From Caulobacter radicis (GTDB lineage: Bacteria; Pseudomonadota; Alphaproteobacteria; Caulobacterales; Caulobacteraceae): a stretch of DNA of 64,000 nucleotides. Positions 13,328-45,874 of this stretch are shown here, one piece after another. The DNA is taken from positions 1 to 64,000 of the forward strand of contig NZ_QDKO01000010.1 of the NCBI RefSeq assembly GCF_003094615.1, read 5' to 3'. How positions within the stretch are numbered: the stretch's first letter is position 1; each line of letters begins with the position of its first letter. The notes beneath the pieces are model-generated. The model was not told the origin of the DNA. It made no database searches and was given only the letters and a program-made list of their open reading frames with translations. The position numbers and the translations under genes are program-made.

Positions 13328-15655
13328 ATGGGCCAGTTTCTCAGTCGGGCGACGATCCGGTTCGCATCGTCGGTCGACCGCCCGGTTCTTCGGTTCTGCC
13401 TGGCCGGCGCGGCCGTGGGCCTGGCTGTCGCCGCCCGTTTCGGCGCGGCCAGCCTGACCGACCATCCCAGCAACTTCCCGCCGTTCTTCGTCGCCGTCAT
13501 GCTGGCCGCCCTGGTCGGCGGGCTGTGGGCGGGCCTGGTGTCGGTGCTGGCCAGCGCCCTGATCGTCCGCCTGCTGTGGATGAGCGGGCCGCTCGACACC
13601 CCCCAGGCCGCGCAGCTGGCCACCTTCGCCCTGAGCAGCGGCCTGATCGTGCTGTTCGTCGCCGCCCTGCGGCTGGCCGTGCGCAGCGGTCTGGCCGCCG
13701 AGGAGCGGTTCCGCATCGCCCAGGACGCCTCGCTCGACGCCTTCGTGATCCTCGAGCCCGTGCGGCGCGGCGGCCAGGTCGCCGACTTCCGCTGGACCTA
13801 CGCCAACCCCGCCGCCCAGGCCCTGCGGCCGCGCGGCGTCTCAACCCTGATCGGCCGCCGGGTGCGCGACGTGTTCCGCGACGAGACCGGCCAGCAGATG
13901 ATCGAGCGCCTGACGCGGCTGCTCGACGAGGGCGGTCCCGACGACCTGGAGGTGCGGCGGGTGATCGACGACGAGGAGCACTGGGTGCGCTCCAGCGGCG
14001 TTCGCATCACCGAGGGCCTGGCGGTGACCTTTCGCGACGTGACCCGCGAGCGCCGCGCCCAGGCCGCCCTGCGCACCAGCGAGGAGCAGTTCCGCGGCGT
14101 GGCCAACGCCGCCCCGGTGATGATCTGGATCTCGGGCGTCGACGGGGCCTGCATCTGGTTCAACGACGCCTGGCTGAAGTTCACCGGCCGCAGCATGGAC
14201 GAGGAGCTGGGGCGCGGCTGGGCCGCCGGCGTCCATCCCGATGACCTCGACGCCGCCGAGGCCGAAGCCGCCGCCGCCATCGCGGCCCGCCGCCCGTTCC
14301 GCGCCGCCTTCCGCCTGCGCCGGGCCGACGGCGCCTGGCGCTGGATCAGCAGCGCCGGCGCCCCGCGCCACGACGCCTACGGCCAGTTCCAGGGCTATAT
14401 CGGCAGCTGCTTCGACAATACCGAGGTCGTGGAGACGACGCTCGAACTCGAAGACCGCGTCGCCGAGCGCACCGCCGCCCTGGAGGCCAGCATCGCCGAG
14501 CGGGCCAAGACCGAGGCGGCCCTGGCCCAGTCCCAGCGGCTGGAGACCGTCGGCCGGCTGACCGGCGGCGTCGCCCACGACTTCAACAACCTGCTGACGG
14601 TGATGGTCGGCGGGCTCGACATGATCCTCAAGCGGCCCGACGACGTGGCCCGCGTGCGGCGCCTGGGCGAGGCGGCCCTGGCCGCCGGCCAGCGCGGCGA
14701 GCGCCTGACCCGCCAGCTCCTGGCCTTCTCGCGCAGCCAGGAACTCAAGCTCGAAGTCGTCGACATCGCCGGCCTGATCCTGCAGGTCGAGCCCCTGGTC
14801 CGCCGCGCGGTCGGCGACGCCAAGAGCCTGGAGGTCCGCGCCGACCGCGAGGCCGGCTCCAGCCGCGTCGACGCCGCCCAGTTCGAGGCCGCCCTGCTCA
14901 ATCTCGTCGTCAACGCCGTCGACGCCACGCCCGACCACGGGACCATCACCGTCGAGGTCACGGCCGAGCGGCTGGAGGACGGCCAGGCGGGCGAGGCCCC
15001 GGCCGGCGACTATGTCCGCGTCGCGGTGTCCGACACTGGCCATGGCATGTCGCCCGAGGTCCTGGGGCGGGTGTTCGAGCCGTTCTTCACCACCAAGGAG
15101 GTCGGCAAGGGCACGGGTCTTGGCCTGGCCCAGGTCTACGGCTTCGTGCGCCAGTGCGGCGGGGCGGTGACCATCGACAGCCAGGAGGACAGGGGCACGA
15201 CGGTGTCGCTGCACCTGCCGGCCGCGGTTTCCGACGGCGTCGCGGTGGAACGGTCCGAAGGCGCCCCGATCGCCGACCTTTCCGGCGTGCGGGTGCTGCT
15301 GGTCGAGGACGACGCCAGCGTCCGGGCCATCACCGAGGGCGCGCTGACCGAACTGGGCTGCGTCGTCGTCACCGCCGAGCACGGCCGCGCGGCCCTGGTC
15401 CGGCTGGAGGCCGAGCCGGACTTCGACGTCCTGCTGTCGGATCTCGTCATGCCCGGCGGCGTCAGCGGCGTCGAGCTGGGCCGCATCGTCGCCGACCGCG
15501 CGCCCGGCACCGCCGTCCTGCTGACCACCGGCTACGCCGGCGACCGTCTCGCCGCCGCCCTGGAAGACCTGCCCTGGCCGGTGCTGCGCAAGCCGTTCCG
15601 CATCGAGCAACTGCATAGGGCGCTGGCCGAGGCGGTGCGGGGCGGACCAAGATGA
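13328..15655 (+). CDS. membrane hybrid histidine kinase with PAS domains and receiver
   Basis: 775 residues. An N-terminal membrane module of about four spans (residues 20-120, DUF4118/MASE-like) is followed by a PAS-like segment, a PAS-PAC ([10 protein letters not shown] to GYIGSCFDN), a coiled coil, a HisKA phospho-acceptor in GGVAHDFNN (His417), a HATPase with [13 protein letters not shown], and a C-terminal receiver with EDD and Asp705 ([10 protein letters not shown]). This is the soluble-PAS hybrid kinase type common in Caulobacterales. No DNA-binding output or partner regulator is adjacent, so its phosphorelay partner is unknown. The stop codon coincides with the first base of the family A inverted repeat. 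Confidence 0.88.
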
Positions 15656-16182
15656 TCCCTCTCTCTTAGAGAGAGGGAGGGGCCCGCCGCGCAGCGGTGG
15701 GAGGGTGAGTGGTTTCGCCCTCCCAGGAAAATCCCGATTCCTCTGATTGAGAACGCAGGAACGCCATGCCCAGCTTTGCTGATGGACAGGACCGCCTACG
15801 CCCGCCGCCTACGCCAAAGCCAAACCCTGGCGGAAAAGACGCTTTGGACCCTTGTCCGCAACCGCCGCCTCTCAGGCTTCAAGTTCATGCGGCAGATTGC
15901 GATCGACCGCTATTTCGCGGACTTCGTCTGCGAGGCGGGCAAGCTGATCGTGGAGCTCGACGGCGCGGCTCATGACGGTCGCGAGGACTATGACGACCAG
16001 CGCACCGAAACCTTGGAGCAGCTTGGATACGTGGTGTTGAGGTTCCGCAACGAGCGGGTCCTGGCCGATCCCGGCGGGACCGCCGACGAGATCCTGTCCG
16101 CGCTCCGATCGGCCAGGTCGTAACCACTCACCCTCCCACGCCTTGCGGCGCGGGCCCCTCCCTCTCTCTAAGAGAGAGGGAT
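15655..16182. repeat. family A element: 60-bp inverted repeats enclosing a DUF559 gene
   Basis: The left arm (15655-15714) and right arm (16122-16182) are near-perfect reverse complements over about 60 bases. Each starts at its outer end with a 25-base palindrome (ATCCCTCTCTCT, TAGAGAGAGGGA type), then AGGGGCCCGC, a small variable hairpin, GGGAGGGTGAGTGGTT. The two arms differ mainly in the hairpin (GCCGCGCAGCGG versus GCGCCGCAAGGCG). The interior is taken up by the DUF559 gene, whose stop codon lies in the right arm. Other family A copies in the window are at 25618-25642, 27559-27890 and 45713-45874. Mobility is inference; no target-site duplication is evident by eye. Confidence 0.85.
15782..16123 (+). 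CDS. DUF559 protein, Vsr/restriction-endonuclease-like fold
   Basis: 113 residues. The sequence has the DUF559 pattern: an N-terminal Arg-rich helix (YARRLRQSQTLAEKTLW), FKFMRQIAIDRYFADFVCE, then LIVELDGAAH and DQRTETLEQLGYVVLRF. The Asp, the ELDG Glu/Asp and the His fit the PD-(D/E)xK core shared with Vsr nucleases. Function in this family is not established; nuclease activity is a fold-based prediction. No clear SD precedes the ATG. An alternative TTG lies 6 bases upstream. The whole gene sits inside family A inverted repeats, with its stop codon inside the right arm. Confidence 0.85.
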   Translation: MDRTAYARRLRQSQTLAEKTLWTLVRNRRLSGFKFMRQIAIDRYFADFVCEAGKLIVELDGAAHDGREDYDDQRTETLEQLGYVVLRFRNERVLADPGGTADEILSALRSARS

Positions 16183-25520: not shown

Positions 25521-25642
25521 CCGTCATTCCCCCCTTGTGGCGGGAACCCCTGGTTCAGCTGACACGTGAGACGTAAGCGGCGCGCCGAATTCCGCTAAGG
25601 GAGGGGCCGGACATCAAATCCCTCTCTCTAAGAGAGAGGGAT
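25521..25642. repeat. chimeric repeat: half a family F element joined to a family A palindrome
   Basis: 25521-25608 matches the left half of family F (CCGTCATTCC, TTGTGGCGGGAACCCCTGGTT, then the same interior as the copy at 54262). Instead of the expected right arm, the sequence passes into AGGGAGGGGCC and then the exact 25-base family A palindrome at 25618-25642 (ATCCCTCTCTCT / AGAGAGAGGGAT). The remainder of the gap to 25849 shows one further 8-bp hairpin (GCATTCCC / GGGAATGC, 25698-25725) and no gene. Confidence 0.7.
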
Positions 25643-27558: not shown

Positions 27559-27890
27559 GACCCTCTCTCTTCGAGAGAGGGAGGGGCCCGCGCCGAAGGC
27601 GTGGGAGGGTGAGAGGTTACGCTCTCACCAGCAACGACACTCAATCATCGTCATCCCGGAAAGCCCGCAGGGCTTATCCGGGACCCAGGGGGACTGGGCT
27701 CAAAGCTTGGTTCAACATCCGGTGGTGGTCTCTGCATTGCGGTGGCCCCTGGGTCCCGGGTCTCCGCTTCGCTCCGCCCGGGATGACGGCATAGGGACGG
27801 AAGGAATCGAGATTTTCCGGCCAGGGGTGAAACCTCTCACCCTCCCACCGCTTCGCGGTGGGCCCCTCCCTCTCTCGAAGAGAGAGGGAT
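27559..27890. repeat. family A inverted-repeat pair enclosing a family B element
   Basis: The left arm 27559-27618 and right arm 27831-27890 are the same inverted repeat as around the DUF559 gene (outer CCCTCTCTCTTCGAGAGAGGG palindrome, GGGGCCC, a small hairpin, GGGAGGGTGAGAGGTT). The interior contains a complete family B element at 27649-27788 and no gene. The element starts 6 bases after the phoD stop codon and ends 8 bases before the lysE-like stop codon. Confidence 0.85.
27649..27788. repeat. family B inverted-repeat element (CGTCATCCCGG type)
   Basis: The left arm starts CGTCATCCCGG, contains a small hairpin (AGCCCGCAGGGCTT), and ends CCGGGACCCAGG. The right arm is CCTGGGTCCCGGG, a small hairpin (CGCTTCGCTCCG region), CCCGGGATGACG. 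It lies wholly inside a family A pair. A second copy is at 47520-47624. Confidence 0.82.
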
Positions 27891-45712: not shown

Positions 45713-45874
45713 CTCTCCCAGAGGGAGAGGGAGGGGCCCATGCGCAGCATGGGAGGGTGAGGGGTTTCAGACTTTCCGGATGGGGCAGGGACGAGGGGCC
45801 GGACGGCCAACGGCGTACCCCCTCACCCTCCCGTCGCTATGCGCCGGGCCCCTCCCTCTCCCCATGGGAGAGGG
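45713..45874. repeat. family A inverted-repeat pair running into the vsr coding region
   Basis: The left arm 45713-45770 (CTCTCCCAGAGGGAGAGGGAGGGGCCC, hairpin, GGGAGGGTGAGGGG) and right arm 45818-45874 (CCCCTCACCCTCCC, hairpin, GGGCCCCTCCCTCTCCCATGGGAGAGGG type) follow the family A pattern with a diverged outer palindrome. I give the arms as patterns, not full sequence. The right arm overlaps the last 12 codons of the vsr gene on the minus strand. Confidence 0.78.

Follow-up and report, generated by a model that had tools for sequence, protein, structure and literature searches.

The BoxC/PIT/TM repeats of E. coli came to notice in the 1990s and were found anew in 2000 and again in 2015, with no known function and no known mover, and the DUF559 proteins are still labelled a family of "unknown function". 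Treating these repeats as TMECO, Holder et al. (2015, PMC4666352) describe oligonucleotides that form a triplex in vitro, on isolated single strands, and report that no support was found for a stable triplex in vivo. By the same account the E. coli repeats stand in inverted pairs, type A with type B, and no mobility genes or activities had ever been found near them; its main text does not name ycjD, which in K-12 is a DUF559 gene.

Two other systems bear on the locus described here. In the REPIN/RAYT system, as presented by Bertels and Rainey (2011, PMC3116915), the repeats form inverted extragenic doublets with gene-less copies, singlets are left through loss, and a cognate nuclease gene varies with the repeats. 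On the protein side, EDxHD homing endonucleases (I-Bth0305I) are described as intron- or intein-linked and as having long DNA-binding parts (PMC3943268), while the C. crescentus DUF559 protein VsrA is described as required for the SOS response in cells without cytosine methyltransferase, is proposed as a mismatch-repair enzyme and is encoded by a gene unlinked to that of its methyltransferase (PMC12907096).

In the window, by which we mean the whole 64,000-nucleotide stretch of Caulobacter radicis DNA that was analysed, a 528-bp unit at 15655-16182 (locus L001, with L001 L and L001 R as its left and right arms) consists of a DUF559 gene enclosed by two inverted arms. The features of this unit and of its relatives in the window are as follows:

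15655..15712, plus strand: left arm, third strand fitting the purine stem at 10/10 positions
15656-15678, plus strand: outer palindrome of the left arm, with stem TCCCTCTCTC (15656-15665), loop TTA and purine stem GAGAGAGGGA (15669-15678)
15702-15711, plus strand: third strand of the left arm, AGGGTGAGTG, following the inner hairpin
15776..16123, plus strand: DUF559 gene (PF04480, E=2.7e-44; model pLDDT 91.5)
16115..16182, minus strand: right arm (inverted), containing the stop codon, third strand fitting at 10/10 positions
16160-16180 and 16125-16134, minus strand: outer palindrome and third strand of the right arm
25618..25642, no strand assigned: lone outer palindrome of the same family as the window arms, with no arm cores beside it
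27561..27890, no strand assigned: gene-less unit, its two arms enclosing a palindromic repeat of another kind
45713..45874, no strand assigned: gene-less unit of a sub-family with a CTCCC/GGGAG stem

The preliminary description had called the arms nearly identical. This was borne out for an outer stretch (15655-15693 against 16144-16182, 39 nt, 95% complementary) and an inner one (15697-15721 against 16115-16139, 25 nt, 92% complementary), and when both stretches are aligned as one, with gaps, the inverted repeat has a length of 67-68 nt and scores 98; it was not borne out for the inner hairpin, which is where the arms differ (GCCGCGCAGCGGT on the left, GCGCCGCAAGGCGT on the right). The stop codon does lie inside the right arm, as had been proposed: the TAA at 16121-16123 lies near the inner edge of that arm, within a GGTTAC tail common to other arms. 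The reading frame has 115 codons from the TTG at 15776 and 113 from the ATG at 15782, the latter being the more likely start. As for the same arms occurring elsewhere in the window without the gene, two gene-less units and a lone palindrome are indeed present, with the corrections that the unit at 45713 belongs to the CTCCC/GGGAG sub-family and that the unit given as 27559-27890 is present as 27561-27890 with an extra palindromic repeat of another kind between its arms.

Read from the outside inwards, each arm opens with a pyrimidine-rich stem, joined by a short loop to its purine complement; an inner hairpin follows, and then a purine-rich strand mirroring the purine stem, with G facing G and A facing A or T. 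This is the general plan of a purine-motif intrastrand triplex (Y stem, R stem, mirrored third strand), and both window arms fit it in full (10/10). The BoxC/PIT/TM repeats are similar in that they combine a hairpin with a mirrored purine third strand, are intergenic, stand in inverted pairs of two unlike types and vary among strains. However, the literal TMECO pattern CCCTCNCCCN3-6GGGNGAGGGN3GGGNGAGGG is not matched by the window arms, in which there is an inner hairpin and the third strand starts 23-24 bases after the stem, whereas TMECO has a 3-base second loop; the window repeats also enclose a nuclease gene, unlike TMECO as Holder et al. describe it (PMC4666352).

A Pfam scan of the window protein gave DUF559 (PF04480), together with MTES_1575 below the cut-off, and nothing else. 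Its fold matches 3hrl, the homing endonuclease I-Bth0305I (PDB 3r3p) and Vsr, and as modelled it is a nuclease-like protein of the EDxHD/Vsr fold. Residues D49, D62, H66 and D73 are invariant in 52 relatives and E20 is kept in at least 90%, and the spacing E20-D49-D62-H66 is the same as that of E73-D102-D115-H119, named for VsrA (PMC12907096); assigned by this spacing, putative residues of the active-site type are present. Among the pairs listed, dN/dS was 0.05-0.31. The protein consists of one catalytic domain of about 115 residues, in which no extra DNA-binding domain was found, and this bare domain lying between intergenic repeats sets the element apart from the intron- or intein-linked EDxHD homing endonucleases. 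It differs also from Vsr repair, as no methyltransferase gene lies beside the window gene, and perhaps in the arms that flank the gene. The protein did not match a known defence protein (0 PADLOC families at E up to 0.01).

An analogy with REP sequences and RAYT transposases had been drawn in the preliminary description. It holds for the plan, which comprises paired inverted repeats, many gene-less copies and a nuclease gene that varies with the repeats, but it does not extend to membership, as the protein here is an EDxHD/Vsr nuclease rather than an HUH/Y1 transposase and the arms follow an intrastrand-triplex plan, which the preliminary description had not noticed; moreover, RAYTs are described as single-copy (PMC3116915), whereas several near-identical full DUF559 elements occur per genome. 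Insertion sequences and MITEs share with the element terminal inverted repeats and the coexistence of full and gene-less copies, but the encoded protein belongs to no DDE or other known transposase family and no target duplication was seen at four sites, where the ends are approximate. The nearest analogue is REPIN/RAYT in plan and the EDxHD homing endonucleases in fold, and by these comparisons the element falls into neither. We judge it to be of a new kind because, as far as literature searches extend, we know of no element class that joins an EDxHD/Vsr-type nuclease to triplex-plan ends. Nothing on a link between DUF559 and triplex repeats was found in searches of the open-licence literature of PubMed Central.

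PF04480 was present in 76 of 99 genomes of the family (Caulobacteraceae). The family sample comprised 96 loci: all seven from the C. radicis genome, one (the best) from each of 29 other genomes, and 60 from further down the listing. Three at contig ends were dropped and 93 scored. An inverted repeat around the DUF559 gene reached a score of at least 45 in 75 of these loci and at least 60 in 66, with 18 falling below 45; HNH loci taken as controls in these same genomes never reached 45 (0 of 29, one short locus being left out). The two outcomes that the preliminary description had named as signs of chance linkage, DUF559 genes elsewhere with no association with the arms and arms equally frequent around unrelated genes, were looked for in this way and not observed. 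Positions sliding through syntenic DNA reached 45 in 2 of 1562 cases, both on a DUF559 element, and among 313 pseudo-gene positions in the window one exceeded a score of 36, this being the window unit itself. Wrongly paired flanks of different family loci scored 60 in 15% of 1056 pairs, because arm families are common to several loci. In 21 of 33 loci the left flank matched its own right flank better than it matched all, or all but a few, of the foreign ones.

A wider scan of named genomes covered at least 596 stretches, and the best 80 of at least 316 relatives gave 69 full loci; these loci were not sampled at random but picked for their similarity to four proteins of the Caulobacteraceae. 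Within it, the score was at least 45 in 44 of the 69 loci and at least 60 in 27, with 25 below 45, whereas shuffled flanks gave a maximum of 34 in 345 and wrongly paired loci reached 45 in 4%. Outside the Alphaproteobacteria, 14 of 25 loci among these best 80 of at least 316 relatives had arms, in Pseudoxanthomonas, Lysobacter, Thiothrix, Betaproteobacteria, Planctomycetes, Chloroflexi, Prevotellaceae (Bacteroidetes) and Uhrbacteria (CPR). Chance, or a common placement of repeats and DUF559 genes in the same intergenic spaces, might be argued from the abundance of arms in these genomes and from the other repeats that occupy such spaces, but given the HNH, sliding-position, pseudo-gene and shuffled-flank controls and the preference of left flanks for their own right flanks, we regard it as scarcely credible.

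A hairpin could be parsed in 147 of 150 arms from the 75 armed family elements, giving 49 distinct purine stems, and the third-strand fit was perfect in 108 of the 147 arms and in none after the downstream bases were shuffled. When each stem was represented by a single arm (22 of these 49 arms having a perfect fit of their own), none of 10,000 re-pairings of stems with third strands fitted as well as the observed pairs. In this genome, where a variable stem position is A, the third strand has A or T there in 69 of 70 arms; where it is G, the third strand has G in 29 of 29. The stems differ by arm family (CCCTCTCTC, CCCTCTCCC, CCTTCTCCC, CCCTTCCCCC, CCCCTCCCC, CCTCCCCC and others), with third strands that differ in step with them. 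For the 14 loci outside the Alphaproteobacteria (again from the best 80 of at least 316 relatives), 26 of 28 arms were parsable and 10 of the 26 had a perfect triplet fit, compared with none on shuffling; in L261 and L300 the arms are turned round, the palindrome being on the inner side of the third strand. Judged from sequence, the conserved property of the arms is the three-strand match, while the sequence of the stem varies.

Arm similarity rises with protein identity, both across the 75 elements (r=0.65) and for 56 same-genome pairs (r=0.87), with 0 of 5000 permutations in each case. The correlation shows that arm and gene stay together; it does not by itself prove that the protein reads the arm, because inheritance as one unit gives the same pattern. 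Gene-less copies also track the arm family. In a comparison based on some of the DUF559 genes of each genome, at least three family-A cores were present in 12 of 15 genomes whose fetched DUF559 has family-A arms and in 6 of 84 others; for family B the figures were 14 of 15 and 29 of 84. At least five copies of families A and B together occurred in 40 of 76 genomes with DUF559 and in 3 of 23 without (p=0.0007, relatedness ignored). The three exceptions among the 23 DUF559-free genomes are G007, G055 and G081, the last with 99 copies in a 460-contig assembly and many arms at contig ends. The claim that these results support most strongly is that in many bacteria DUF559 and triplex-type arms evolve together as a single unit, which has gene-less relatives.

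In the 5.57-Mb assembly, the arm core GGGAGGGGCCCN{8,20}GGGAGGGTGAG has 108 matches (52 forward, 56 reverse) and the reversed control pattern has none, an abundance far beyond chance. All seven DUF559 places in the C. radicis genome, one of them a partly deleted gene, have arms, and these belong to four arm families. The arms converge in all 40 paired units with exact cores, whose inner lengths are at most 268 bp except in the DUF559 elements (417-421 bp). Of the 26 units typed on both sides, 24 have unlike inner hairpins, a result matched by 1 of 20,000 re-pairings. Several other repeats share intergenic spaces with the arms. Internal deletion of the full element is mostly unsupported as the source of the gene-less units: among 34 tested of 37 found, with the 99% level of random pieces of the window as threshold, 8 had a 5'-like and 2 a 3'-like inner end, and clear matches were confined to L007/L073, a DUF559 copy with part of the gene deleted, and to the 27561 unit at its right end.

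By a frame heuristic (n=39), 20 units lie between convergent genes, 18 between tandem genes and 1 between divergent genes. This position near gene ends, together with the requirement for VsrA in the SOS response and its proposed part in mismatch repair (PMC12907096), would suit a repair-type nuclease gene such as that of VsrA residing in a repeat that is moved otherwise, or arms that are used as transcript ends. However, the same pairing is found with different arms in several phyla, the arms follow the protein within one genome, and no gene-sized insert other than DUF559 was seen among the 40 paired units with exact cores. We therefore consider it improbable that DUF559 is a passenger or a household gene.

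Comparison of orthologous sites showed considerable turnover. At the site of the window unit, the full element is present in the C. radicis window genome and in G099, lone palindromes in G086 (same family) and G064 (another family), gene-less units of other families in G056, G124 and G103, and a different repeat in G100. The site of the 27561 unit holds a lone palindrome of the same family in G056, and that of the 45713 unit lone palindromes in G086 and G064; among relatives, both gene-less window sites are occupied by lone palindromes, by different units or by different repeats. The 528-bp element itself gave a single-block match in many congeners, and the flanks of 13 such loci are unrelated except for L003 and L154, which are the same site in two genomes, and for one 29-base match. 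The copies at unrelated sites in one genome (L001 and L003) are 94.9% identical, whereas L003 and L154 are 92.0% identical with flanks that are 94.7 and 97.6% identical. This single case points to probable copying or conversion between sites.

Since units are often reduced to lone palindromes, a host or selfish nuclease might be thought to trim repeats that form triplexes or palindromes and to be retained beside its target without moving it. But near-identical elements at unrelated sites and 108 arm cores indicate spread and not removal alone, and recombination suffices for the lone palindromes, and we think this slightly less probable than a passenger gene. Cutting of the hairpin loop was likewise rejected as the source of lone palindromes, as the E. 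coli loci L217 and L218 carry either the left or the right loop, as expected for plain recombination. Ordinary recombination between outer palindromes explains the lone palindromes, and they were for this reason not used as evidence for the nuclease. The clean insertion sites with target duplications suggested as a check were not found: no direct repeat adjoined the four elements inspected, the ends of which are placed approximately, and no clean before-and-after pair was seen among congeners.

Taken as a whole, the reading we favour, and which is probably correct, is that the unit is a mobile element whose DUF559 nuclease recognises its own triplex-plan arms and spreads them, gene-less ones included, through cutting and host repair copying. 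The parts of this reading differ in strength. It is very probable that the unit is a mobile element and that DUF559 is the protein belonging to it, and there is a good likelihood that the enzyme acts, as predicted, on the arms; homing-like copying rather than single-strand transposition is a tentative choice, to which we would give slightly less than an even chance. Mobility is what we infer from the association as its likeliest explanation. In such a scheme, the arms would fold on single-stranded DNA, for example on the lagging-strand template, and the DUF559 protein would bind and nick the folded arms; a cut at a matching palindrome would then be repaired from another copy, and lone palindromes would arise by loss of the unit between its two outer palindromes. 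Single-strand transposition would fit the REPIN-like plan of extragenic inverted doublets with a cognate nuclease (PMC3116915), the two unlike ends, and the retention by the arms of a fold that requires a single strand. It seems unlikely, however, as the DUF559 protein is a hydrolytic nuclease of the Vsr/EDxHD type and not one of the HUH/Y1 enzymes, which retain a covalent link, and no excision junctions were seen besides lone palindromes.

We favour the mobile-element reading because of the matched arms in the family and the wider scan, the mirroring by the third strand and the joint variation of arm and protein; because gene-less copies track the arm family, the units have two unlike ends and the sites turn over; and because of the L001/L003 identity, the invariant residues, the dN/dS values and the fold shared with a homing endonuclease and Vsr. 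Counted against it were the sub-threshold loci, the lack of a target duplication or clean insertion, the gene-less units that mostly do not have the inner ends of the element, the copies in G007, G055 and G081 without DUF559, co-inheritance as an explanation of the correlation, a degenerate motif at a single end of K-12 ycjD, recombination as an explanation of solo palindromes, the turned-round arms of L261 and L300, and the absence of an extra DNA-binding domain.

In E. coli K-12, motif no. 9 of the 23 published (PMC4666352) lies 168 bp from the end of ycjD. The 3' end of ycjD is overlapped by a complete motif in strain 10035776-3, an arrangement like that of the window gene; in K-12 this motif is degenerate, and none was seen at the 5' end of the gene. 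The order fabI-ycjD-sapF, at least 80% covered, was found in 3330 of 5426 E. coli genomes. The outer bases of 13 of the 23 K-12 motifs were inspected, with GTC outside type A in 8 of 8 and TTTTC outside type B in 4 of 5. At hrpB-mrcB, two of the strains examined do not have the pair seen in MG1655 and two others have a lone palindrome there. At alx-sstT, a lone palindrome takes the place of the pair in two strains and other sequence does so in a third. The one palindrome-free site differs from the filled one by further bases. It is conceivable, at nearly even odds, that the whole BoxC/PIT/TM world owes its mobility to DUF559 proteins as dedicated enzymes, forming a bacteria-wide class with ends set by triplex formation instead of a constant sequence, in which every nuclease would read its own family's triplex and ycjD would serve BoxC. 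A cognate nuclease would, if this is true, explain the copy number, two unlike ends, strain turnover and decay to lone hairpins of BoxC/PIT/TM, would give DUF559 a role, and would establish a class of element whose hallmark is a three-stranded form of DNA and whose nuclease has about 115 residues. Usual annotation overlooks the element because its parts are filed separately.

With regard to origin and surroundings, a phage source was not supported, as one scan for close relatives of the window protein gave no confirmed match in viral_contigs; distant DUF559 matches were found in 3 of 50,697 phage records. At the gathering score tRNA was the one RNA family matched in window positions 14000-48000, so the arms do not correspond to a known RNA family. 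A DUF559 relative was present in 39 of 72,556 plasmid records, all below 60% identity. The neighbours of the window DUF559 gene, by a Pfam scan of both, encode a hybrid histidine kinase and a HerA-like ATPase.

In the family genome G081, arms of families A and B were present in 99 copies, and no DUF559 match was found in its 460-contig assembly. Many of these arms had a contig end within about 150 bases, and so the elements of this genome may have been lost at assembly breaks. The copy of the window element found at an unrelated site of the same genome (L003; G000:C41:66604-66873) matched the DUF559 profile at positions 19-108 only, despite the element being full length (528 bp). The N-terminal part of this copy looks frame-shifted. 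At two further DUF559 loci (L261 and L300) the arms seem to be reversed in orientation, with the third strand facing outward and the palindrome inward.

At the 3' end of ycjD in E. coli 10035776-3 (L220), the repeat itself encodes the C-terminal tail of the protein, SPSPQPSP; similar protein tails may therefore betray hidden arms. The fabI-sapF locus, at which K-12 (L038) has ycjD, was compared with that of one examined strain, FDAARGOS_536 (L219), where the genes following fabI code for a TetR-type regulator and for RND efflux. Thus, the locus has alternative contents.

Different palindromic repeats were also present in the intergenic spaces orthologous to those at window positions 15655 and 27561, and one such repeat was nested inside a gene-less two-arm unit of the window:

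L144, L138, L148 and the interior of the window unit at 27561-27890: palindromic repeats of other kinds, whose ends are CCCGTCATTCCCGCC or CATCCTGAGG or TCATCCCGG
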